64,000 nucleotides of DNA from an uncultured Bacteroides sp. (GTDB lineage Bacteria > Bacteroidota > Bacteroidia > Bacteroidales > Bacteroidaceae), in assembly GCA_949294185.1 (NCBI GenBank), contig CASFGA010000006.1, positions 124,001-188,000 of the forward strand. The letters run 5' to 3'. Of this stretch, positions 4,952 through 19,985 are shown one piece after another (positions within the stretch are counted from its first letter, which is position 1; each line of letters opens with the position of its first letter). The notes beneath the pieces are model-generated. The model did no database searches. It was not told where the DNA came from and was given only the letters and a program-made list of their open reading frames with translations. A program made the position numbers and the translations under genes.

Positions 4952-7245
<2,294 letters not shown>

Positions 7246-7247
7246 AA

Positions 7248-7298
7248 AACATGAATGCCGTGCGGGCTGTGCAGCCTGCACGGCATTCATGTTTTTTT
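7248..7298 (+). terminator. Strong intrinsic terminator after the esterase pair
   Basis: Perfect 16-bp arms AACATGAATGCCGTGC (7248-7263) and GCACGGCATTCATGTT (7278-7293), with extra pairing inside the loop, end in a run of seven T. It separates the GH51-GH43-GH43-CE1-CE1 unit from the next GH43 gene. Confidence 0.93.
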
Positions 7299-7442
7299 AT
7301 ATCGGTACCAGACCCCGTTTTTTATATGGGAAGAAAAGTTTTTTCCCCGGTGGAAAACACTTTTTATAGGCAGTGGCGGATTTTTGTTTGGGACACCGCT
7401 TGTTTGTCGGGGAGAAAAGGAGATTTTCTCCTGCATTTGTCT

Positions 7443-7450
7443 TATCTTTG
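7443..7450 (+). promoter_or_regulatory. Bacteroidota -7 box TATCTTTG upstream of the GH43-CBM gene
   Basis: TATCTTTG matches TAnnTTTG and places a start site near 7457, 23 bp before the gene. No TTTG element occurs at the normal 19-21-bp distance. Instead a GGAGAAAA/TTTTCTCC inverted repeat lies just upstream (about 7412-7431), a possible activator site. The absence of the -33 box fits a promoter that depends on the locus regulator. Confidence 0.5.
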
Positions 7451-7479
7451 TTCGTAATACTTGAAATTTAATTTAGCGC

Positions 7480-8799
7480 ATGAAAAACAATAAGTTCTTT
7501 TTAATATTGCTCGGCTTGTTGCTCGGTACGGGTATCCAGGCACAGAATCCGATTATCAGCGGACAGTTTACGGCCGACCCTACGGCCAGAGTATTCGAAG
7601 GGAAGCTGTATCTTTACCCTTCACACGATATTCCGAGTCCGATAGAGCGGCTGAAGGAGTGGTTTTGTATGGCCGACTATCATGTTTTCTCCTCCGAAAA
7701 TCTGGTTGACTGGAAAGATCATGGCGTAATCCTTTCTCAGGAAGATGTTCCCTGGGGAGATCCGGAATCTTATTCCATGTGGGCCCCCGACTGTGTATAT
7801 AAGAACGGGAAATATTATTTCTATTTCCCGGCAAGTCCGAAGGGTGGCAAAGGCTTTAATATAGGAGTCGCAACGGCGGACAAGCCATACGGCCCGTTTG
7901 CGCCTTTGGCAGAACCGATAAAAGGCGTGTTCGGCATCGACCCTTGCGTATTGCTTGACAAAGACGGGCAGGCATATCTGTACTGGTCTGGCCGCGGACT
8001 TAATGTGGCCAAGCTGAAGGATAATCTGGTAGAGCTTGACTCGGAGCCGGTTTCGATAGTCGGTCTGCCGGAAGGGTTCAAGGAGGGGCCTTTCGCCTTT
8101 GAACGTAACGGCAAATATTATTTGACTTTTCCGTGGGTGCAGGACAAGACAGAGACTTTGGCCTATGCCATGGGCGACAGTCCGATGGGGCCTTTCGAGT
8201 TTAAAGGCCTGATAATGGAGCAGTCTCCTACGGGATGCTGGACCAATCACCATTCTTTGGTGGAATACAAGGGGCAATGGTATCTGTTCTACCATCATAA
8301 TGATTATAGTCCCGAGTTCGATAAGAACCGTTCGGCACGAATCGACTCGTTGTCCTTTAATCCGGATGGAACTATCAGGCAGGTTATTCCGACTTTGCGC
8401 GGTGTGGGCGTGACGGATGCCCGGAAGGAAATCCAGATAGACCGTTACAGCAGCATCAGCAAGACGGGAGCTTCGATTGATTTCCTGAATCAGGCCGATA
8501 AGTTCGAAGGGTGGAAGCTTGTGCTTGGCGGCACTGATGCATGGGCTGCATACAATACGGTGGATTTTGGAAACGGGAAATTACAGCGGATGACCGCCCG
8601 TGTCTTGTCGGATGGCGGAGGAACACTGCAGGTCACTGCCGGCGGAAAACTGCTGGCCGAAGTCAAGGTGCCGGCATCAACCGTGCAATGGGAGACGCTG
8701 ACAGTTCCGGTAAAGGCATCTCAGTCGGGCATCTGTAATTTGCGGATTGAGCTTGTCGGCGGTAGCGGCGTGCAGGTGGACTGGATTCGCTTTGAATAA
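7480..8799 (+). CDS. GH43 glycosidase with C-terminal CBM6-like domain
   Basis: Exported 439-residue enzyme with signal peptide MKNNKFFLILLGLLLGTGIQAQ. The propeller, residues 25-310, has Asp33 in TADPTAR, Asp154 in GIDPCVL and Glu202 in KEGPFAF, the complete GH43 catalytic set. The segment GCWTNHHSLVEYKGQWYLFYHH is typical of the beta-xylosidase/arabinofuranosidase branch. Residues 325-439 form a beta-sandwich ending VQVDWIRFE, as in CBM6-type carbohydrate-binding modules. It has its own -7 box and is followed after 30 bp by the hybrid regulator without an obvious terminator, so the two may be co-transcribed. No lipobox is visible, so it is probably periplasmic. Confidence 0.9.
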   Translation: MKNNKFFLILLGLLLGTGIQAQNPIISGQFTADPTARVFEGKLYLYPSHDIPSPIERLKEWFCMADYHVFSSENLVDWKDHGVILSQEDVPWGDPESYSMWAPDCVYKNGKYYFYFPASPKGGKGFNIGVATADKPYGPFAPLAEPIKGVFGIDPCVLLDKDGQAYLYWSGRGLNVAKLKDNLVELDSEPVSIVGLPEGFKEGPFAFERNGKYYLTFPWVQDKTETLAYAMGDSPMGPFEFKGLIMEQSPTGCWTNHHSLVEYKGQWYLFYHHNDYSPEFDKNRSARIDSLSFNPDGTIRQVIPTLRGVGVTDARKEIQIDRYSSISKTGASIDFLNQADKFEGWKLVLGGTDAWAAYNTVDFGNGKLQRMTARVLSDGGGTLQVTAGGKLLAEVKVPASTVQWETLTVPVKASQSGICNLRIELVGGSGVQVDWIRFE

Positions 8800-8829
8800 T
8801 CGGATACTTTAAAACGGTTTGTGGACAAG

Positions 8830-11800
8830 ATGCAGTTTCGTAACATTCTGATAGTTGTTTTAGGGTTGTTTTGTGAATTTGCTTTGGGCGTCTTGCATGC
8901 CCAAAGCAATTCCGTTTCCTATAACTATCATTATATAACCATGCGTGGAGGGCTTTGCGACAATACAATACGTGCAATTCACAAAGACCGGAACGGCTTT
9001 ATGTGGATAGGAACATCCAACGGGCTCGACCGTTACGACGGTTATGACTTCAAGCATTATTCCGTATCCCTTAGGTTTCCCGACCGTTTTATCGAGAGCA
9101 GTTACATCAATGACTTGGCCGAAGACACTTCCGGACATTTGTGGGTGGCGACCGAGTCGGGCATAATGCTCATTGACTTGGCTGATGAACATATAGAATC
9201 ATATAAAGATTATTCGGGAAAGTATAAGGAAGTGCTTCATACGCCGGTTCAGACTATTCTGATCGACAGCTTCGACAATCTTTGGATAGGCAAGAACGAC
9301 TGTGTTGCCTATGTCAGGCTGAATGAAGAGCGGGAGATAGAAGACATACAGATATTGAAATCGGATGTGGATATCCGTATGTTTGTCTGTCACGGCAGTG
9401 ATGTATGGGCAGGGGGATACGGCTGTCTTTTCCGTTTTGTCCATTCAGGGCGGCAGCATTATTCGTTGATGCCTCTGCCTTCCGGTTTCGACACTTCAGA
9501 CTTGATATTCACAAGTGCCCATTCCTGCGGTGATTATTTGTGGCTGGGCAGTCAGAACGGTCTGTTTTGCTGCGACACGCGCAATGTCTCTTTTACACGC
9601 TATCGCCATATTCCGGGAGATGCGGAAAGTTTGTCTTCCGATTTTGTGACGGACATTACGCGCAACGCATCGGGGGATTTGGTCATCGGAACGCGCAACG
9701 GCGTGAATGTGTTCCGGCAGGGCAGGCATTTTACGGCTTATACCAAAGGAAACACTTCGCAGTCCTTGAATGATAATCTGATAACGCGGGTATTTGTCGA
9801 TGATTCCAATAATATCTGGGCAGGCTCGGAATTCGGTGGGGTGAACATTATGTCGCCGGTCCGGATATCTTTCTCTTATTCCTTGCGCGGATATGATAAG
9901 GGCACACTCAATATAATCAGTACGGTAATAGAGGATGATGAAGGCAACATATTGGCCGGAATGGTGGACGGCGGTCTGGCTATCCGGCGCAAAGGGAGCG
10001 GTGAGTTCCGGTTTTACCGCCACAATCCCGAGGACATCCGTTCGTTGGCTCATGACAATATTTCCCGTATTGTGCAGGACTTCGATGGCGATTATTGGAT
10101 TGCTACCATCGGCGGAGGCTTGGACAAATTGTGTAAGGAGCATTTGGACGCTCCGGTTTTCGAGCATCATGACACCTCCAACTCGCCTCTTCCCTCGAAT
10201 GATATCTATGACATCGCTCTGGATAGCCTGCGCAATTCTTTATGGATCTGTAGCAATAACTATATTCATACCTTGGCTTTTTCTTCCGGTGCCATTAACC
10301 AATTGCGTTATTATACGCATACGGGAGAGGAAATGCATAATATGAACACCATTTTTGTCGATTCCCGTTCGCGCTTGTGGATAGGGGGAAACGGGGTCGG
10401 GGTTATAGATCTGGAAAATTCTCAAGGCGGATACGAATGTTTTTATTACCGCTATAAGCTGGACAGTCCGGCAAGCAAGATCAGCGAGAAGATAACATGC
10501 ATTTTTGAAACAAGGGACGGCAATGTTTATTTGGGCAGTCTGGGTAACGGTATGTATCTGTTGGAAGGGGAGGAGCGTCTTGACAAGTGCGTCTTTAGGA
10601 ACTATGGCGTGCGTTGCGGACTGTCTGATACGAGCATTTCGAATATATTGGACGATGATAGTGGAAACTTGTGGATTTGTACATTGAAAGGAGTCTATTT
10701 CTTCGACATCACTACACAGCGTGCCTTCAAGTTCGACCAAGAAGACGGTTTGCTGGTTCCTCAATTTTATCGGAGGGCGGGATGGAAGTCAGCCGGTCAT
10801 ACCCTTCTTTTGGGAACAACGGACGGACTGGTGGCTTTCAAGCCGCTGATGAATTTTCCCAAGCCCGGACAGCGTGAGGTGGTGCTGACCGATGTGTCTT
10901 TTGGCGGACAGCCGCTGACTGCTTTCCGCTATCCTGAAAATCTTTCTGCCAGTATCGTGACGGCTGATGAACTTCATCTTTATCCGCCTCAGAACTCTTT
11001 TGAGGTGACATATAGCTGTCTGGAATTTCTGGAGCCCGAGAAGGTATTTTATTCTTACCAGATATTGGAGCTGGATAAAGACAGGAATGTGGGGCTGATG
11101 AACCGGAATGCGAAATATACGAATCTTGCTCCCGGAACGTATACCTTGGAAATACGGTGTACGAACCATGACAATACTTGGTCTTCGGAACGGAAAAAGC
11201 TGAAGATTGTAGTGCATCCCCCTTTTTATCGCACCGGATGGTTTTACGCTTTGATGGCACTGGCCGGAGTCTTGATTCTGGTCGGACTGCTTTATTGGTA
11301 TAATGCCCGGCAGAGATATATACAGCGCTTGCTGAAGCGGAAGATAGACGAACGGACAAAGGAACTGCATGATACGATTACCGAGCTGACTACTTCTCAG
11401 GAAACGATTATTCATCAAAATGAGCAGCTCCATAGCCGGAGTATGGAAATCAGCAGGCAGAAAGACGAAATACTCTTTATGTCCAAGCAGATGGAAGAGA
11501 TAAACCGTGAGAAACTGTCTTATTTTACCAACATGGCACACGAGTTCAAGACTCCGCTGACATTGATACAAGGGCCTGCCCAACAGTTGGAAAAGCAGTT
11601 GGCAGGTAAGGAACAGAAGGAAAGCTTGCAGACAATCATCCGGAATGCACAGTATCTGCTGTCGTTGGTCAACCAACTGATAGATTTACGGAAAATTGAT
11701 ACGAAGAACTTTACCCTGAATTATTCGGACTTTGACTTTCGGCATTTTCTGGATGTGGTGACCGCCGACTTCTCCGGACTGATGAAAGAGCGTAACATAA

Positions 11801-13050
11801 CCTTTGACTGTGTGACTCGTTTGCAGAGCAACTTCATTTCTTCCGATAAGGAGCAGCTGCATAAGGTACTGTTCAATCTGTTTTCGAACGCGGTGAAACA
11901 TACGCCGGACAAGGGGAAAATAATTTTGTATGCCTGCCAATTCAGAAGTGGAAAAGGGCAAATGATGCAGTATCTTTCGGTGGCCAATACGGGAAGCTGC
12001 ATTCCCCCGGAAGAGACAGAGCGGATATTCAACCGTTTCTATCGGATTGAGGCACAGAATCGCTTTTCAGTCCACGGACAGAGCAGCACGGGAATCGGAC
12101 TTCATATTGTAAAGGAAATCGTGAACCTGTTGGGAGGAGTCATTCGGGTCAGGAGTTCTGAAAAAAGCGGAGTGTCGTTTAGACTTTATTTCCCGGTTAC
12201 TTTGGTTGCGGTAGGGGCAAAGGCGGAGCCGGAAATCCACCAGACACTTGTTGGCATGGATGAAAATGCTGAAACATACGTTCCGGTCGATGCTGGCAAG
12301 CCGGTTCTGCTGTTGGTGGAAGATAATCCGGACATGCGCCGCTATATCAAGACCATGTTGCAGGAGCATTACAATGTAGCCGAGGCAGGGAATGGAGAGC
12401 AGGGATATGATGTGGCGAGAAAGCTGGTGCCTGATATAATTGTGTCCGATCTGATGATGCCCGTGTGCGATGGTATGGAACTCTGCAAGAAGATACGGCA
12501 TGACCGCGCGTTGAGTCATGTGCCGTTTGTCCTTCTTACCGTTAATTCGGATATGGAGGCGCAGACAGAAAGCTACGAGAGCGGGGCCGACGGATATTTG
12601 ACCAAGCCCTTTGACGAATCTGTATTGTTGGCATATCTTCAGTCGGTAGTGAAGAACCGGGAGATACAGCGGCATAAGTCGGAGGTTGAATATGGACTTT
12701 CTCCGGAGATGAAGGGAATCGGGCAGCCTGACAAGCTGTTTATGAACGAGGTGCTCGAGACATTGGAGAAGAATTATGCAGACCCGAATTTCGGAGTGAA
12801 GGAGCTGGCCGGAAGCTTGAATATAAGCTACGCTGTGGCTTATAAGAGGCTGGTGGCGCTGACAGGGCTTTCTCCCGTGCGTTTCCTCCAGTCATACCGT
12901 CTTCAGAAAGCGAAGAAACTGTTGGAAAGCAGCAGCAATGTTGTCGTTTCGGAAATAGCTTATCGGGTGGGATTCAATGACCCGAAATATTTTACCCGTG
13001 TGTTTGTGAAGCAATACGGGCAGACACCTACCGATTTCATCAAGTCTTGA
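8830..13050 (+). CDS. Hybrid two-component system regulator (sensor kinase, receiver and AraC domain in one protein)
   Basis: Single-protein sensor and regulator of 1406 residues, the usual controller of a Bacteroides glycan locus. The ATG at 8830 begins the signal peptide; GTG at 8821 would add three residues. The order is a periplasmic two-bladed propeller built from reg_prop repeats (MWIGTSNGLDRYDG and similar) to about residue 700, a Y_Y_Y domain to about 800, one membrane helix near 805-828, a coiled coil, HisKA with His904 in MAHEFKTP, an ATPase domain (NLFSNAVKHT), a receiver with Asp1207 in SDLMMP, and a C-terminal AraC-type DNA-binding domain (residues 1300-1406, ending FTRVFVKQYGQTPTDF). 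It probably senses an arabinose-rich oligosaccharide and activates the neighbouring enzyme genes. Confidence 0.96.
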   Translation: MQFRNILIVVLGLFCEFALGVLHAQSNSVSYNYHYITMRGGLCDNTIRAIHKDRNGFMWIGTSNGLDRYDGYDFKHYSVSLRFPDRFIESSYINDLAEDTSGHLWVATESGIMLIDLADEHIESYKDYSGKYKEVLHTPVQTILIDSFDNLWIGKNDCVAYVRLNEEREIEDIQILKSDVDIRMFVCHGSDVWAGGYGCLFRFVHSGRQHYSLMPLPSGFDTSDLIFTSAHSCGDYLWLGSQNGLFCCDTRNVSFTRYRHIPGDAESLSSDFVTDITRNASGDLVIGTRNGVNVFRQGRHFTAYTKGNTSQSLNDNLITRVFVDDSNNIWAGSEFGGVNIMSPVRISFSYSLRGYDKGTLNIISTVIEDDEGNILAGMVDGGLAIRRKGSGEFRFYRHNPEDIRSLAHDNISRIVQDFDGDYWIATIGGGLDKLCKEHLDAPVFEHHDTSNSPLPSNDIYDIALDSLRNSLWICSNNYIHTLAFSSGAINQLRYYTHTGEEMHNMNTIFVDSRSRLWIGGNGVGVIDLENSQGGYECFYYRYKLDSPASKISEKITCIFETRDGNVYLGSLGNGMYLLEGEERLDKCVFRNYGVRCGLSDTSISNILDDDSGNLWICTLKGVYFFDITTQRAFKFDQEDGLLVPQFYRRAGWKSAGHTLLLGTTDGLVAFKPLMNFPKPGQREVVLTDVSFGGQPLTAFRYPENLSASIVTADELHLYPPQNSFEVTYSCLEFLEPEKVFYSYQILELDKDRNVGLMNRNAKYTNLAPGTYTLEIRCTNHDNTWSSERKKLKIVVHPPFYRTGWFYALMALAGVLILVGLLYWYNARQRYIQRLLKRKIDERTKELHDTITELTTSQETIIHQNEQLHSRSMEISRQKDEILFMSKQMEEINREKLSYFTNMAHEFKTPLTLIQGPAQQLEKQLAGKEQKESLQTIIRNAQYLLSLVNQLIDLRKIDTKNFTLNYSDFDFRHFLDVVTADFSGLMKERNITFDCVTRLQSNFISSDKEQLHKVLFNLFSNAVKHTPDKGKIILYACQFRSGKGQMMQYLSVANTGSCIPPEETERIFNRFYRIEAQNRFSVHGQSSTGIGLHIVKEIVNLLGGVIRVRSSEKSGVSFRLYFPVTLVAVGAKAEPEIHQTLVGMDENAETYVPVDAGKPVLLLVEDNPDMRRYIKTMLQEHYNVAEAGNGEQGYDVARKLVPDIIVSDLMMPVCDGMELCKKIRHDRALSHVPFVLLTVNSDMEAQTESYESGADGYLTKPFDESVLLAYLQSVVKNREIQRHKSEVEYGLSPEMKGIGQPDKLFMNEVLETLEKNYADPNFGVKELAGSLNISYAVAYKRLVALTGLSPVRFLQSYRLQKAKKLLESSSNVVVSEIAYRVGFNDPKYFTRVFVKQYGQTPTDFIKS

Positions 13051-13127
13051 TGAGTGTATTAATTACTTTTATCAGTTGATGGCCTTATTTTAAGAGAATA
13101 GGAATAGCTTGTTTGAATTAAAAGACT

Positions 13128-13135
13128 TAAATTTG
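13128..13135 (+). promoter_or_regulatory. Bacteroidota -7 box TAAATTTG upstream of the second GH51-like gene
   Basis: TAAATTTG fits TAnnTTTG and predicts a start site near 13142, about 41 bp before the ATG at 13183. A TTTG lies only 12 bp upstream instead of 19-21 bp, so the -33 element is effectively absent, as for the GH43 promoter at 7443. Confidence 0.5.
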
Positions 13136-13182
13136 TAACACTTCGATAGTTAACATAGTTGTTTAATGACAAATTTAAGATT

Positions 13183-15393
13183 ATGAAAACATTTAGGAAC
13201 ATCTCTTTAGGGGCGGTGCTGTTGGTTTCTGGCTTAGGCTATGCGCAGGAACCGGTGCAGCTACAGGTGGATGCGGGGCAGCAAATTGCCACTGTGACCA
13301 AGTTGTTTAACGGGACGAACATTGAAGACCTGAACAATCAGACGAACGGAGGTATTTTCAGTCAGCTGCTTCATGGCGAAGCGTTCGAAGAAAACATGGA
13401 TGTGGACTTTCTGAATCTTGATCGGGCCGACTATTCCAAGGTTTATGTCTTTTTAGACGAGCGGAGGATACCGCATCTCATTCAGCAGGCCAATATCTAC
13501 CATCGCATTACCTGGAACAACCGGAGCGAGAAATACGACTGTAATTCAAAAGATGTATATGATTCGCGTCCGATGCGCGATCCGATTGTCATTTCCGGAT
13601 GGAAGTTCTGGGGGCGTTTCCTGCCTTTCGATTCCATTCCGTCCGATATTCAGAAGATTATGTTAGACCGTCTGAACGGGAACGAGCAGATATCCAAGTA
13701 TTGGAGCAAGTCAGTTTCCGGTTCGCCTGAGTATCGTTATGAACTGGTGCGCGACGGGAAGGCGTATATCGGCCGGCAGACCCAGACCATTTCCTTTGTA
13801 AGCGGAACGGGTGAAGTGGGACTGACCAATCATGGCTTGTACCGTATGGGAATCTGCTACCAGAAAGACAAGCCGTATGACGGTGTGTTGCGTGTGAAGT
13901 CGGAGAAACCCGTCACGCTTTATCTTTCTTTGCGGAATGATGCCGGGAAGATAATCGCGGAAAAAGGCTTCGACCTGAAGGGAGACGGCACTTACGAAAA
14001 GGTTTCGTTTGAGCTGGTGCCTGCTGAGGATGCCAAGCAAGGCAGTTTCGGCATTGCCCTGAAGAGTCCGGGCAAGGTAGATCTGGGATTTGCCTTCCTG
14101 CAACCGGGAGAATGGGGCCGGGTAAACGGATTCCCCATCCGCAAGCAGTTTGTCGATGCCTTGAAGCGTCAGGGAATCTCGGCATTCCGCTACAACGGTT
14201 CAATGGTAGATGTGGGAGCCGATACTTACCTTTACCGGTGGAAAAAGATGATCGGCCCGGTAGATGAGAGAAGAGTGACTTTGCGTACGGGCTTCAATCT
14301 GTATGGCACTCACAGTTTCGGATTTATCGAAATGCTTCAGGCTGCCGAGGCGGTGGGAGCCGTGCCTATCATCGGAATGAGCATGGACGAGACGGCGGAA
14401 GACATCCGCGATTTCGTGGAATATGTCAACGGGCCTGTGACAAGCAAGTGGGGGGCTCTTCGTGCAAAACACGGACATCCGGAGCCTTACGGACTTAAAT
14501 ACATCGAGGTGGACAACGAGCGGCATATTTCCCGCGGTTATATAGAGTGTATGAAGAAGTTTGCCAAGGCTGCCTGGGAGGTAGACCCGAACATGTCAAT
14601 CATGGCATCCTTGAATATTGGGCGTAACGGGTACAAACGCGGCACAAAGGAATATGAACTGTCGTCCGAACTGGCGGGATGGTTCATCAGTCAAGGCAAG
14701 GGAAATAATTTTGCCTGGGATCCGCACTACAGCGGAGACCGTCGGTTTGCCGATGATGAAGCTTGGTTTGAAAACGAGATGGGCATCGTGCTCCAGCGCG
14801 AACTGGCCAAAGACTATCCGGGATTCAAGCTGAACCTGCATCCGATGGAGGAAAACGGAAGCCGCTGCGACTGGGACCGCGGTTTGGCTCATGCCAGCAA
14901 CTGGAATACATTACAGCGTTACGGAGATTGTTTCCAGATGTTGGGAACGGCGAATACTTTCCAGCCCCACGGATTGCACTATATGTGGGATCAGGGACGC
15001 ATTCATTACACATCGGATGCCATGTGGTTTGAGCCGTCGGCCTGCATCGACGAGATGATGACAAAGACATGGAAACCGAATGTGGTGCAGACAAGCAGCA
15101 GCGATGATGCGCTCGACATTACGGCGAAGATAGACGATGCCAAGACGGAGATGACTATCTATGTGGCCAACATGAGCGACCAACCGAAGGAGGCTGTGCT
15201 GAATATCGACGGATTCAAGTACCGGACGAATGCGGAGGTACAGACTATCGGCGGTTGCGACCTGACGGAAAGCAATACGTATGAGAACCAGAACAACGTA
15301 GTGTTCCGTCCGTCGAAGGCGAAGATTGCGAAGAAAAACGCCAAGTATACTTTCCCGCGCTATTCTTATACGGTGATAACGCTGAAGAAGTAG
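13183..15393 (+). CDS. Large GH51-like alpha-L-arabinofuranosidase, exported
   Basis: Predicted clan GH-A glycosidase of 736 residues with signal peptide MKTFRNISLGAVLLVSGLGYAQ. An upstream TTG at 13159 would place eight residues before the signal and is unlikely. It begins with the GH51-type segment TKLFNGTNIEDLNNQTNGGIF and carries an inserted carbohydrate-binding-like beta-sandwich (about residues 170-310) before the barrel. Likely acid/base is Glu446 in EVDNE; the nucleophile is probably Glu556 or Glu557 in HPMEENG. It differs strongly from the GH51 enzyme at 761-2287, suggesting a different linkage or a longer substrate. It ends the locus and converges on the outer-membrane protein gene. 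Confidence 0.78.
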   Translation: MKTFRNISLGAVLLVSGLGYAQEPVQLQVDAGQQIATVTKLFNGTNIEDLNNQTNGGIFSQLLHGEAFEENMDVDFLNLDRADYSKVYVFLDERRIPHLIQQANIYHRITWNNRSEKYDCNSKDVYDSRPMRDPIVISGWKFWGRFLPFDSIPSDIQKIMLDRLNGNEQISKYWSKSVSGSPEYRYELVRDGKAYIGRQTQTISFVSGTGEVGLTNHGLYRMGICYQKDKPYDGVLRVKSEKPVTLYLSLRNDAGKIIAEKGFDLKGDGTYEKVSFELVPAEDAKQGSFGIALKSPGKVDLGFAFLQPGEWGRVNGFPIRKQFVDALKRQGISAFRYNGSMVDVGADTYLYRWKKMIGPVDERRVTLRTGFNLYGTHSFGFIEMLQAAEAVGAVPIIGMSMDETAEDIRDFVEYVNGPVTSKWGALRAKHGHPEPYGLKYIEVDNERHISRGYIECMKKFAKAAWEVDPNMSIMASLNIGRNGYKRGTKEYELSSELAGWFISQGKGNNFAWDPHYSGDRRFADDEAWFENEMGIVLQRELAKDYPGFKLNLHPMEENGSRCDWDRGLAHASNWNTLQRYGDCFQMLGTANTFQPHGLHYMWDQGRIHYTSDAMWFEPSACIDEMMTKTWKPNVVQTSSSDDALDITAKIDDAKTEMTIYVANMSDQPKEAVLNIDGFKYRTNAEVQTIGGCDLTESNTYENQNNVVFRPSKAKIAKKNAKYTFPRYSYTVITLKK

Positions 15394-15514: not shown

Positions 15515-17803
15515 TCAGACCCCGAAGCGGGAGGTGTCTACCTCTTTCATTTCTTTCTTCTTATACCCGCCGAACTTGTAGCTGAACGATACGGTCAGCC
15601 CGCGGCGATGGTTCGCCACATCCATATTCAGGTGCTGCGCTCCGTTCCGGACTCTGGTCCTGAGCTGGTTGTTTCCGTTGAAAAGGTCTTCCCCCTCTAT
15701 CTGCACCATCGCCTTGTCGCCGGCAAACGTGTAGCGCAGGGCGGCATCCACGATTCCCACCGGCTGAATCTCATAGCTTCCCTGTATGGCCTTGGTCTGC
15801 CCGAAGGCACTGATTTCCATTTTGATATTGGGCTGCTTGCAGAGTGTAAAGGTGTTCGTCCAGCTTCCTATGCCCGTCCATTGCTTTTTGTCGAACGGCG
15901 CATCGTAATAGCGGCTTGCTTTGGCATGGACGAGCTGAGCGTTCAGCGACAGTTGGCTGTCCCACCATCCGCCCGCCTTGAGGGGAATGACGGCGGTAAA
16001 GACCAGTTGGCTCTGATAGTCCCAGTTCTGGTAATTGAATACGGACTTCAGCCGCCGGGAGTCTAAGTAAACCATCTGCATGAAGTAGTCGGGCTGATAG
16101 TCGTAGCTGATCTGAAAGATGTATTTGCTTTTCAGAATGTAGGCCAGTGCCGTGTTGTAGTCGGCATAAGGCTTCAGCGAGACATTTCCCACCGATTCCT
16201 GATAGCCGTTCAGGTATCCTCGAGAGCCGCTCAGCGTCCAATAATCCGGGTAAGTCTTGTCGGAACTGAAGGAAAGCTGGAGGATATGCGACGGAGAATG
16301 CACATAGCTGAGCTGCATGGTCGGGTAAACCGCCCATTTCTTGTAGTCCGTCATCCGGTAGTATTCTAAAGCGGCCGATGCGCTGAGGCTCCATTGTGGA
16401 CTGAAGCTCTTGTCGAATCCGGCGTATATATTATAGGTATATTCGTCGATGCGGCTGTTCGTGTTCTCTTGGCTCATCTCGGGCAGATTATAGTATTGTG
16501 TATTCCGGTCGTTCACATAGGTAAACGAGATTCCGTAATTGAGCGTCCAGTCTTCCGGCAAGGCATGGCTCTGGTCGGCATACAGCTTCCACCGGTCGAT
16601 GCGCTGTTCGGAGTCGCTGACGAAGGCGGTCTTCTCTCCGTTCCCATCAGTGTCTGCAAAGTCTTGCGTGCTTTTGTCGGAATAGTAGGTATAGTCAGCT
16701 CCGGCTTTCAGCCCGAATCCCGATGCATAGCTTAAGGCCACGTTGTGCATCTGGTTCTTGCTTTGCTGGTCGTTTGTCGAGTTGGAAACGTTTCCTCCTG
16801 CTTGCAGAAGGTTCGTGTCGTCGGGGGTAAAGTCGGTGGTATAGCTGAGGCTGAGCAGGTTTTCACCGTCGAACTTGTAGGTTCCCCCTGTCCGGAGCGT
16901 ATGGCTGACGCTTCTTCCCGCCCCGTCGGTATAGAGGCGGATGTCGTGCACCTCTCCATCTACCGTGTGGAGTGCGGCAAACTCCATCGACTGACGGCTG
17001 TAGCGGTCGTCAATGCTGTACATAAACTCCACATCGAGCTTCGGCGAGGTGAAAGCCAAAGTCAGTCCGCCGTTTGCGCCCGCTTCATCCGTCTGTATGT
17101 AGTTGGCGTTCACTTCGCCTTGCAAGCCTCCTTCGCCCGGTTTGTACCCTTTCAGCACGATATTGACGGCCGCTCCGCGCACATGATACTGGGGAGGCGC
17201 GCTGTACATCACTTCCGCCCGCTCCACGCGCGAGGCCGGCATACTTTTCAGCAGGGCCGCAAGCTGTTCGTAACTCATCGATGATGGTTTCCCGTTCAGG
17301 ATAAGACTCAGTGAGCCTGCTCCGGCCAGTGTCAGCACATCGTTCTGCTCGATGATTCCCGGCAGCTGCCTTACCGCTTCATAGGCGTTTGTCACTAATT
17401 TGTTGGCGGTAAGCTGCGGCATGTCGTAGGTCAGGCGGCCGCTTTCCACCTTCACAAGCGGGCGTTCGCCTTTCACCACCACCTCGCCCAGTGCATAGTC
17501 TTTTTCTTTCATCACCGTTACTCCGGCGTTGCTCCCAGTCCCTTCCTTTTCCACCGTGTCGTAAAGAATGTGCTGAAATACTAGACGGTAGCGCTCGGGC
17601 TGATGGTTTAGGGTGAATACCCCGGTGCTGTCGGTGATGGCTGCGTCAATAAAGGTGGAGTCAGGCATCTGGAGCACCACGGTGGCGCCGTCTACCGGAT
17701 GTTGTGCCGGGTCTGTAACTTTTCCTGATACGGTTTGTGCTGTGACTGTTTCGGACAAAAATCCCGCAGCAAGCAGGATGCCCGTCAAAAAATACTTTTT
17801 CAT
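15515..17803 (-). CDS. TonB-receptor-like outer-membrane beta-barrel protein
   Basis: The 762-residue protein has a signal peptide (MKKYFLTGILLAAGFLSETVTAQ), a carboxypeptidase-regulatory-like domain (VSGKVTDPAQHPVDGATVVLQ, about residues 24-100), a plug-like domain (residues 105-220, LPGIIEQNDVLTLAGAGSLS) and a long beta-barrel rich in aromatic strands ending near SFSYKFGG. This is the short, SusC-unlike family often annotated outer-membrane beta-barrel family protein. No SusD partner is adjacent. It is divergently transcribed from a histidine kinase/response-regulator pair that begins 97 bp away, with shared control elements, so the pair probably regulates it. Its cargo, if any, is unknown. 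Confidence 0.85.
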   Translation of the reverse strand: MKKYFLTGILLAAGFLSETVTAQTVSGKVTDPAQHPVDGATVVLQMPDSTFIDAAITDSTGVFTLNHQPERYRLVFQHILYDTVEKEGTGSNAGVTVMKEKDYALGEVVVKGERPLVKVESGRLTYDMPQLTANKLVTNAYEAVRQLPGIIEQNDVLTLAGAGSLSLILNGKPSSMSYEQLAALLKSMPASRVERAEVMYSAPPQYHVRGAAVNIVLKGYKPGEGGLQGEVNANYIQTDEAGANGGLTLAFTSPKLDVEFMYSIDDRYSRQSMEFAALHTVDGEVHDIRLYTDGAGRSVSHTLRTGGTYKFDGENLLSLSYTTDFTPDDTNLLQAGGNVSNSTNDQQSKNQMHNVALSYASGFGLKAGADYTYYSDKSTQDFADTDGNGEKTAFVSDSEQRIDRWKLYADQSHALPEDWTLNYGISFTYVNDRNTQYYNLPEMSQENTNSRIDEYTYNIYAGFDKSFSPQWSLSASAALEYYRMTDYKKWAVYPTMQLSYVHSPSHILQLSFSSDKTYPDYWTLSGSRGYLNGYQESVGNVSLKPYADYNTALAYILKSKYIFQISYDYQPDYFMQMVYLDSRRLKSVFNYQNWDYQSQLVFTAVIPLKAGGWWDSQLSLNAQLVHAKASRYYDAPFDKKQWTGIGSWTNTFTLCKQPNIKMEISAFGQTKAIQGSYEIQPVGIVDAALRYTFAGDKAMVQIEGEDLFNGNNQLRTRVRNGAQHLNMDVANHRRGLTVSFSYKFGGYKKKEMKEVDTSRFGV

Positions 17804-17827: not shown

Positions 17828-17835
17828 TATCTTTG
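17828..17835 (+). promoter_or_regulatory. -7 box TATCTTTG for the histidine kinase operon
   Basis: TATCTTTG matches TAnnTTTG on the plus strand and predicts a start near 17842, 58 bp before the kinase gene. There is no TTTG 19-21 bp upstream; that position falls in the start of the divergent gene. Confidence 0.5.
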
Positions 17836-17841
17836 ACAGTG

Positions 17842-17849
17842 CAAATGTA
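17842..17849 (-). promoter_or_regulatory. -7 box TACATTTG for the outer-membrane barrel gene
   Basis: Reading the minus strand, TACATTTG matches TAnnTTTG and predicts a start near 17835. No TTTG -33 box is present. The GTTAAT repeats at 17871-17899 occupy roughly -36 to -64 relative to this start, the usual place for an OmpR-family activator. Confidence 0.5.
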
Positions 17850-17870
17850 GAAAGTGTCTTTCGCTTTCTT

Positions 17871-17899
17871 GGTTAATGCAAGGTTAATGTTACGTTAAT
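17871..17899. promoter_or_regulatory. Triple 11-bp-phased direct repeat, candidate OmpR-family operator
   Basis: GGTTAAT at 17871, GGTTAAT at 17882 and CGTTAAT at 17893 are separated by 4-bp spacers, giving exact 11-bp phasing. This is the architecture of a PhoB/OmpR-family binding site. It lies between the divergent barrel gene and the kinase/regulator operon and directly abuts the kinase start codon at 17900, where bound protein would repress or autoregulate the kinase while activating the barrel gene. Confidence 0.6.
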
Positions 17900-19309
17900 A
17901 TGGGAAAGATGAAACATATCCGGTGGATTGCCGTCGTAGGACTGCTGGCTATCGTCGAACTGCAATATGTATGGCTCACCAATACCTACAAGCTGACGGA
18001 GGAAAGTCTGCTGATGAAGAGCGATGATCTTTTTAAGGACGCTGCCTTGCAGGAGGTTTTCTGCCGGATGGAAAAATACAAGCAGATGACTGCTCCGGAT
18101 TCCGCTTTTTCCATGCAGATAGACTTGGACGAAGATTCGGATACCCTCGCTTCGGAAACGATGGGAAACCGCGCCAGCCAGTGGCTGATGTCGAATTTGC
18201 ACATTGCTTTTCAGAAAGCGGTCTTGGAGGAGCTGAAGATGGATGTGAGTCTGCCCGATTTGGATTCCATCTACGCCCATTTGCTTGACTCCATCGGCAT
18301 CCGCGCACAGGTATTCTCGTGTGTTGTCGATTCGGCAGGAAATGTGGTTCGCAGTTCAAGCGGAAAAGATATCAGTGCCCGCGGAATGCTGAAGACCAGT
18401 CCCGTGCCGATAAGGTTCGACGGGACCCGGTTTCTGCAAGGCGTTATCACGAATCCCTATTGGTTGATTGTGCGGCGGATGACGATGCTGCTGATTGCCA
18501 CTGCCTTGATAATGGTGCTTGTGATAGGGTGCATCGTCTGTCAGATACGCATCATCGTGCGGCAAAACAAGGTCGCAAGGTTGCGCGAAGACTTTTCATA
18601 CGCCATGATTCACGACATGAAGACCCCGCTCAGCTCGATTCTGATGGGGACTCAGATACTGGAAACCGGAAGGCTTGACGCGCAGCCGGAGAAGAAGGCC
18701 CGTTACTTCCGCATCCTGCGTGAGGAGAGCGAGCATCTGCTGGCGCTGACAAACAAGGTGCTTACACTGTCGAAACTGGAAAACCACCGCCTGAAACTGG
18801 TGAAGGACAACTGTCCGTTGCGCCCTTTACTGGAGGATCTGGCCGAAAAGTACAAGGCCAAAGCGGGGAAAGAGGTGGAGTTTCTGTGGCGCTTGGAGGC
18901 GGAAACGGTCTATGCCGACCGGGAATTTCTGAAGGAAGCCCTGAGTAACCTGATAGACAACGCGCTGAAGTATTCGGGCAAACGGGTGGAGATAACCTTT
19001 TCTTCGGGAGTGAAAGCAGACGGCATGACCTATATCAGTGTGCGCGACAATGGCTTCGGCATTCCGCTGAAGGATCAGACGAAAATATTCGAGAAGTATG
19101 AACGGGCCTCGGCGGCATCGCGCAGTCGGAGCGGGGGAGCGGCCGGCTTCGGACTCGGACTGAACTATGTGTTCCGCGTGGCGGAAGCCCACGGCGGACA
19201 GGTGCAGGTGGAGAGCATTGAAGGAGAATACAGCGTGTTCACCCTGCTCTTGCCGCCCGAAGAAGTGAAAAAGAAGGAGACAGAACATGATCAGACTATT
19301 GTTGGTTGA
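17900..19309 (+). CDS. Membrane sensor histidine kinase, OmpR-type partner
   Basis: Transmembrane kinase of 469 residues. A first membrane helix lies at about residues 6-24, a sensor segment of about 165 residues with no recognised domain follows, and a second helix lies at about residues 195-216. The HisKA domain has His238 in YAMIHDMKTPLSS; the ATPase domain has NLIDNALKYSG, DNGFGIP and GFGLGLNYV. The 3' end overlaps the response-regulator gene by 23 bp, so the two are translationally coupled. The layout resembles RprX/RprY-type pairs of Bacteroides, but the sensor sequence alone does not establish that identity. The signal sensed is unknown. Confidence 0.93.
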   Translation: MGKMKHIRWIAVVGLLAIVELQYVWLTNTYKLTEESLLMKSDDLFKDAALQEVFCRMEKYKQMTAPDSAFSMQIDLDEDSDTLASETMGNRASQWLMSNLHIAFQKAVLEELKMDVSLPDLDSIYAHLLDSIGIRAQVFSCVVDSAGNVVRSSSGKDISARGMLKTSPVPIRFDGTRFLQGVITNPYWLIVRRMTMLLIATALIMVLVIGCIVCQIRIIVRQNKVARLREDFSYAMIHDMKTPLSSILMGTQILETGRLDAQPEKKARYFRILREESEHLLALTNKVLTLSKLENHRLKLVKDNCPLRPLLEDLAEKYKAKAGKEVEFLWRLEAETVYADREFLKEALSNLIDNALKYSGKRVEITFSSGVKADGMTYISVRDNGFGIPLKDQTKIFEKYERASAASRSRSGGAAGFGLGLNYVFRVAEAHGGQVQVESIEGEYSVFTLLLPPEEVKKKETEHDQTIVG

Positions 19310-19985
19310 AGACGATGCCAACCTTTGCTACATCATCCGCGGAGGTTTGGAGGACATGATCGGCGGTTATGAGGTGAAGACGGCGGCCGACGGCAGGGAG
19401 GGACTGCGCCTGTGGCGGGAATGGAAGCCCGATGTCATCGTGTCCGACATCGAGATGCCCGTGATGAACGGCTACGAGATGGTGCGCCGCATTCGCGAAA
19501 CAGACGGTGCAACGCCGATTTTGTTTACTTCCGGGCGCGTTTCGCCCAAAGATGTGGTGGAAGGGTATGAGCTCGGCGTGAATAATTACATAAAGAAACC
19601 TTTTTTGGCCGAAGAGCTGAATGCCCATATCACCGCCTTGCTGCGCCTGACCGGCGGGGTGAAGGCGCGCGATGCCCGCGGCGTTTATCCCATCGGGCAG
19701 CTGTATACCTTCGATGCCGACCAGGCCCTGCTGCGTCAGCACGGCGAGGCGGACAAGACCTTGACCGAGCGCGAGGCTCGTCTGCTCCGGTTGCTCTGCG
19801 AGAACAAGGGGGCGGTGGTAAGGCGCGAAACCATCCTTTCGCAGCTTTGGAACACGGAAGAAGACTATTTCGCCTCACGAAGTCTGGATGTGTTCGTGTC
19901 GCGCCTGCGCAAACTCTTGGCGGCGGACGATTCGGTACAGATCAAGACCGTGAAAGGGGTGGGACTGATGCTTGTCTGTCCGTAG
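19287..19985 (+). CDS. OmpR/PhoB-family response regulator
   Basis: DNA-binding regulator of 232 residues. The receiver domain, residues 1-120, has the phosphoacceptor Asp54 in VSDIEMP and the conserved Lys in IKKPF. The winged-helix domain, residues 135-232, has LTEREARLLRLLC, a recognition region SLDVFVSRLRKLL and the terminal hairpin IKTVKGVGLML. The start lies inside the kinase gene (23-bp overlap). The obvious candidate site for it is the 11-bp-phased GTTAAT triplet at 17871-17899 upstream of its own operon and the barrel gene. Confidence 0.95.
   Translation: MIRLLLVEDDANLCYIIRGGLEDMIGGYEVKTAADGREGLRLWREWKPDVIVSDIEMPVMNGYEMVRRIRETDGATPILFTSGRVSPKDVVEGYELGVNNYIKKPFLAEELNAHITALLRLTGGVKARDARGVYPIGQLYTFDADQALLRQHGEADKTLTEREARLLRLLCENKGAVVRRETILSQLWNTEEDYFASRSLDVFVSRLRKLLAADDSVQIKTVKGVGLMLVCP

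Follow-up and report, generated by a model that had tools for sequence, protein, structure and literature searches.

Response regulators of the OmpR/PhoB family bind 11-bp direct repeats next to the -35 element, as in Escherichia coli PhoB and Mycobacterium tuberculosis PhoP; the direct repeats bound by the latter lie about 11 bp apart, and such tandem sites are a well-known general type. The same broad regulator family is represented in the Bacteroidales by RprX/RprY of Bacteroides and Porphyromonas. For gut Bacteroidales, there seems to be little description of the DNA targets of non-hybrid response regulators, and no code of the kind presented below was present in the searched literature. 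The published Bacteroides promoter consists of TAnnTTTG at -7 and TTTG at about -33 (PMC7366714). Additionally, the searched passages of PMC10352776 describe Bacteroidales peptide clusters that comprise a PCAT, a fusion protein, an outer-membrane protein, and sometimes a kinase/regulator pair.

Here, a triplet of short repeats was analysed in a window of 64,000 nucleotides (the whole stretch of DNA examined) and in related genomes. Comparison of sequences indicates that the triplet is very probably the binding site of the neighbouring OmpR-type response regulator (19287-19985), which would activate the adjacent barrel gene.

The divergent intergenic region

The triplet is located between a barrel gene on the - strand and a kinase/regulator operon on the + strand, which are divergently oriented. 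Direct reading agreed with the initial annotation, in which the heptamers GGTTAAT, GGTTAAT, and CGTTAAT were placed at 17871, 17882, and 17893. The GTTAAT 6-mers start at 17872, 17883, and 17894, and this exact 11-bp period bears out the layout of OmpR/PhoB-type tandem boxes that had been proposed. The putative regulator-box triplet (17872-17899, - strand), assigned from direct reading, core conservation, and co-occurrence with a regulator clade, reads ATTAAC-N5-ATTAAC-N5-ATTAAC on the barrel strand and GTTAAT on the + strand. The third repeat ends at 17899 and is directly abutted by the kinase start codon at 17900.

When GTTAAT-N5-GTTAAT-N5-GTTAAT was sought with up to three mismatches, 0.07 matches were expected in the window and one was found, with no mismatches. 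The exact GTTAAT triplet occurs only once in this 2.8-Mb genome, and for a GTTAAY triplet with zero or one mismatch the window site is the sole match in the 2,796,401-bp genome. Similarly, the composite of triplet, 22-bp gap, and TAnnTTTG is unique in this genome; two further composite matches, with three mismatches each, are no more than the number given by the control (two). A chance repeat was ruled out by conservation and by controls. Separately, G176 and G317 contain minisatellite-like 11-bp tandem repeats with GTTAAY that are unrelated to the promoter arrangement described here.

Two -7 boxes face one another across a 6-bp gap in the same region. That of the barrel promoter, TACATTTG (TAnnTTTG; 17842-17849, - strand), was assigned from its constant gap in orthologues and the published consensus, and lies 22 bp from the nearest repeat. 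That of the kinase/regulator promoter, TATCTTTG (17828-17835, + strand), is kept where the kinase is adjacent: a TAnnTTTG kinase box with the 6-bp gap is present in 15/15 loci with an adjacent kinase, and the box is absent in all four loci where the kinase has moved. Both boxes are as first annotated, and direct reading likewise found no -33 TTTG at either promoter; a sigma-70 scan was uninformative for this phylum. A palindromic operator (TAnnTTTG-N6-CAAAnnTA), considered as a perfect inverted repeat, was rejected, as the loci that have lost its left arm are exactly those with a non-adjacent kinase.

Given this geometry, the RNA polymerase footprints of the barrel and kinase promoters must overlap. 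Counting from the inferred kinase start site, the triplet lies approximately 30-57 bp downstream, inside the kinase leader. Because the kinase promoter is upstream of the repeats and runs head-on into the barrel promoter, any self-control of the kinase operon is probably negative, and the earlier suggestion that the regulator controls its own operon was not supported in the sense of activation. Repression of the kinase operon, by exclusion or roadblock, would be the natural prediction.

The flanking genes

The barrel gene (15515-17803, - strand), the proposed target, encodes a 762-aa protein in which Pfam recognizes a carboxypeptidase-regulatory-like domain, a plug, and a PF14905 barrel, in that order. 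In agreement with this order, its AlphaFold model (mean pLDDT 85) has the plug inside a large beta-barrel, as in TonB-dependent transporters, and the best Foldseek matches of the model are the TonB-dependent transporters Cir, PfeA, and PhuR. The modelled fold is TonB-dependent-transporter-like, and uptake of a substrate is a prediction from it. As a query against genome contigs, the barrel recovered four close relatives only, with P. faecium and P. plebeius among those named; the genome of the window is that of a Phocaeicola, of 2.8 Mb.

On the other side is a 469-aa sensor histidine kinase (17900-19309, + strand) with HisKA and HATPase_c domains, assigned from Pfam, alignment, and a structure model of modest quality (pLDDT 74), from which the identity of the sensor was not obtained. 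The region between its two predicted N-terminal hydrophobic helices is presumably the sensor. The kinase gene overlaps by 23 bp with that of the OmpR-type response regulator (19287-19985, + strand; 232 aa), the proposed binder of the triplet, which has Response_reg and Trans_reg_C domains (Pfam) and was further characterized by helix comparison and by its position in a tree. Its recognition helix is YFASRSLDVFVSRLRK. Elsewhere in the window, positions 8821-15393 contain a hybrid two-component regulator (Reg_prop, HisKA, receiver, and AraC-type helix-turn-helix) followed by an alpha-L-arabinofuranosidase-like gene, and are an ordinary sugar-use locus.

Conservation across Phocaeicola

Orthologous loci were fetched from the genus, and the 18 with an alignable triplet were compared. 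The GTTAA cores are 100% identical in 18/18 Phocaeicola barrel loci. The stretch of 22 bp that separates the triplet from the barrel -7 box has a mean identity of 46% and never changes in length, and the sequence downstream has a mean identity of 33%. Conservation of the triplet and its spacing upstream of homologous barrel genes, which had been put forward as a check, is therefore evident in these relatives. The nineteenth locus, L182, is arranged alike except that 1 bp has been inserted between boxes one and two. Among the orthologous loci, the triplet lies at a variable distance from the kinase start codon but at a constant one from the barrel -7 box. Additionally, four loci (L049, L050, L132, and L139) have the kinase operon at a remove of 1-3 kb, separated by other sequence, yet keep the triplet at the barrel promoter, which assigns the site to the barrel gene.

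Two loci carry disrupted genes. In L053 (G016), at approximately 5774-5778 in the fetched orientation, both the barrel and the kinase lack their N-terminal halves, and the divergent promoter is gone; the C-terminal remnants of the two lie 4 bp apart beside an intact regulator gene. In L129 (G061; 6436-8465), the triplet is present and the regulator gene is in two pieces approximately 1.3 kb apart (residues 1-103 and 100-232), which suggests that it was split by an insertion.

The position of the triplet relative to the barrel -7 box is thus invariant, as expected of an activator that stands in for a missing -33 element, and in keeping with the initial view that the repeats lie at the right distance to activate this promoter. 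We infer activation of the barrel gene, rather than its repression, from position only. It is also conceivable that the adjacent regulator, when bound to the triplet, turns the barrel gene down, or that its binding there chiefly lets the kinase operon repress itself, since in this genome the repeats are in the kinase leader directly before the start codon, where a bound protein would block elongation. However, this is improbable in view of the invariant distance to the barrel -7 box and the retention of the triplet with the barrel when the kinase operon is elsewhere; moreover, the same arrangement in sister systems fronts many genes that do not adjoin a kinase. Activation of the barrel gene by the adjacent regulator is the favoured reading.

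The promoter rule across the Bacteroidaceae

On the target strand, the rule reads TAAC-N7-TAAC-N7-TAAC-N22-TAnnTTTG. About 98 exact matches were found in 35/399 Bacteroidaceae genomes, compared to one for a reversed-pattern control. When the gap was left free at 10-34 bp in 61 Phocaeicola genomes, 86 of 88 matches had exactly 22 bp, as counted from the matches listed, and the control gave none. The same arrangement precedes other divergent genes at paralogous kinase/regulator loci.

The site is present in 33 of the 43 genomes with a regulator of the window regulator's clade, versus 2/356 without one (Fisher P=5e-37, a value that overstates independence because the genomes are related). The exact composite site is missing from 10/43 regulator-bearing genomes, and some of those examined have degenerate sites, namely the 1-bp insertion of L182, a changed -7 box in L131, and a weak third box in L188 and L198.

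Regulator clade and recognition word

Regulators encoded beside such sites have the recognition-helix motif SRSLDVF in common, apart from a few variants (e.g. SRSLDTY), and form one clade with 100/100 support. No triplets were found in the scanned loci of the neighbouring clade with an RSLHVF helix, many of which also have a kinase and a barrel. Three groups are contained in the SRSLDVF clade: that of the window, with a barrel target; a peptide-linked group, which does not form a single branch; and another barrel-linked group (L038, L039, L063, L189, and L190) with GTTAT boxes at the same distance. The barrel sites of the window's group all have TTAAC at repeats 2 and 3, whereas other sites mostly have ATAAC, and this split holds inside six genomes that have both regulator subclades. 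The split fits paralogues with separate specificity, and the association of the sites with the clade of the encoded regulator is strong.

The window's genome encodes 17 proteins that match this regulator family, and so a different member, such as the conserved RprY-like protein or one whose gene lies elsewhere, might bind the triplet; we consider this very unlikely, as the sites track the SRSLDVF clade. The RprY-like protein is 36% identical to the window regulator, is found in many genomes that lack the site, and has a different recognition helix (RSMDVYITKLRK); RprY was ruled out as the triplet binder by this distribution and helix. Weakest of all, and close to negligible, is the proposal that the repeat arose by chance or mutation, or acts in the kinase leader as an RNA or translation-initiation element. 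The triplet does abut the kinase start codon in the window's genome, and some other genera have GTTAAY in unrelated tandem repeats of 11 bp. However, the triplet is kept at the barrel promoter in the four loci without an adjacent kinase, and its distance is variable to the start codon and constant to the barrel -7 box, with the 22-bp spacing fixed genus-wide. A leader or ribosome-site element was rejected on the ground that relocation of the operon leaves the triplet with the barrel gene, although a leader role keeps a small residual probability in the window's genome.

Other predicted targets

The fetched loci contain 78 distinct sites, and the reading frames downstream of these were sorted by a simple classification. 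This gave 14 barrels, 11 short GG-motif peptides, 9 DUF3836-like proteins, 6 HlyD-type fusion proteins, 4 TolC-type proteins, 3 M16 peptidases, and 2 TraB/GumN-like proteins, with 29 without a class. Pfam confirmed examples of the HlyD, OEP, M16, and DUF3836 targets, as well as a C39-peptidase ABC exporter and one TraB/GumN example. On the strength of these classified and Pfam-confirmed targets, the sister systems look like controllers of double-glycine peptide export, and their regulators appear to drive double-glycine peptides and export genes. The window's genome has the barrel site only.

In L244, L246, L249, and L250, short double-glycine peptides with triplet promoters lie beside HlyD and TolC genes; L244 also has the Pfam-confirmed C39-peptidase ABC exporter gene, and similar reading frames are present in L249 and L250. 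A TraB/PrgY/GumN-family gene is directly behind a triplet promoter in L144, and a similar reading frame occurs approximately 390 bp further on in L143 (L143-L144 = G225, G362).

Taken together, and tentatively, one Bacteroidaceae regulator clade may govern envelope traffic through one strict code (three TAAC boxes, 22 bp, and TAnnTTTG), with one branch directed to an outer-membrane transporter that has a possible role in peptide uptake or sensing, and with sister branches directed to double-glycine peptides and their exporter, proteases, and DUF3836/TraB-like proteins. If this joint reading is true, gut Bacteroidales would have peptide circuits for signalling or competition, in which the words are specific to each paralogue. 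The code, derived from sequence only, picks out about 100 promoters among related gut bacteria, many of which serve genes for secreted peptides and exporters; it predicts which paralogous regulator reads TTAAC or ATAAC, and points to short, easily overlooked double-glycine peptides and exporters as one regulon.

Proposed mechanism

The kinase (17900-19309) would phosphorylate the OmpR-type regulator (19287-19985), molecules of which would sit on the three TTAAC boxes, one DNA turn apart and on a single DNA face. The bound boxes would correspond to about -34 to -61 of the barrel promoter, where the regulator would keep RNA polymerase in place at a promoter with a -7 box and no -33 box, thereby turning on the barrel gene; the fixed distance of 22 bp would reflect contact between regulator and polymerase. 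With the kinase promoter head-on into the barrel promoter, polymerase would occupy only one of the two at once, and therefore induction of the barrel should lower transcription of the kinase and regulator, as a predicted negative feedback.

Comparison with known systems

Neither the word, the rule, nor the regulon was found in the searchable literature, which excludes most subscription journals, and no description of the site was found in the literature searched on DUF3836, on double-glycine peptides and two-component systems, or on PF14905 and histidine kinases. The promoter code was also not found in the searched passages of PMC10352776. The BcpT/bacteroidetocin response was considered as a candidate, and the passages searched name a sigma/anti-sigma pair rather than this system.

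The features of a tandem-box activator promoter are recognizable, namely direct repeats of approximately 11 bp (in the window and 18 loci), a site beside the -33/-35 position at a constant distance (a gap of 22 bp in 86/88 matches), and a linked, cognate winged-helix response regulator (from Pfam domains and co-occurrence). Similar to the pho boxes of E. coli PhoB and to other tandem sites of the OmpR/PhoB family, the site has 7-bp words with 4-bp spacers, a winged-helix regulator, and a position next to or over -35. However, it differs from these in its word (TTAAC), in having three boxes as a rule, in its strictly fixed 22-bp gap, and in its promoter, which is of the Bacteroidota type with TAnnTTTG at -7 and no -33 box. 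M. tuberculosis PhoP (structures 3r0j, 5ed4, and 9ji3) is a sequence relative of the window regulator, although the similarity is at the family level only, and the target word and organism are different. The best NCBIfam match of the window regulator is RprY (NF051850), with a score of 178.7 that falls short of the cut-off of 370; unlike RprY, the window regulator is in a separate clade and has a different recognition helix. Lastly, sister regulators and triplet promoters sit in peptide clusters like those in the searched passages of PMC10352776, whereas the window's genome differs from such clusters in having the barrel site alone.
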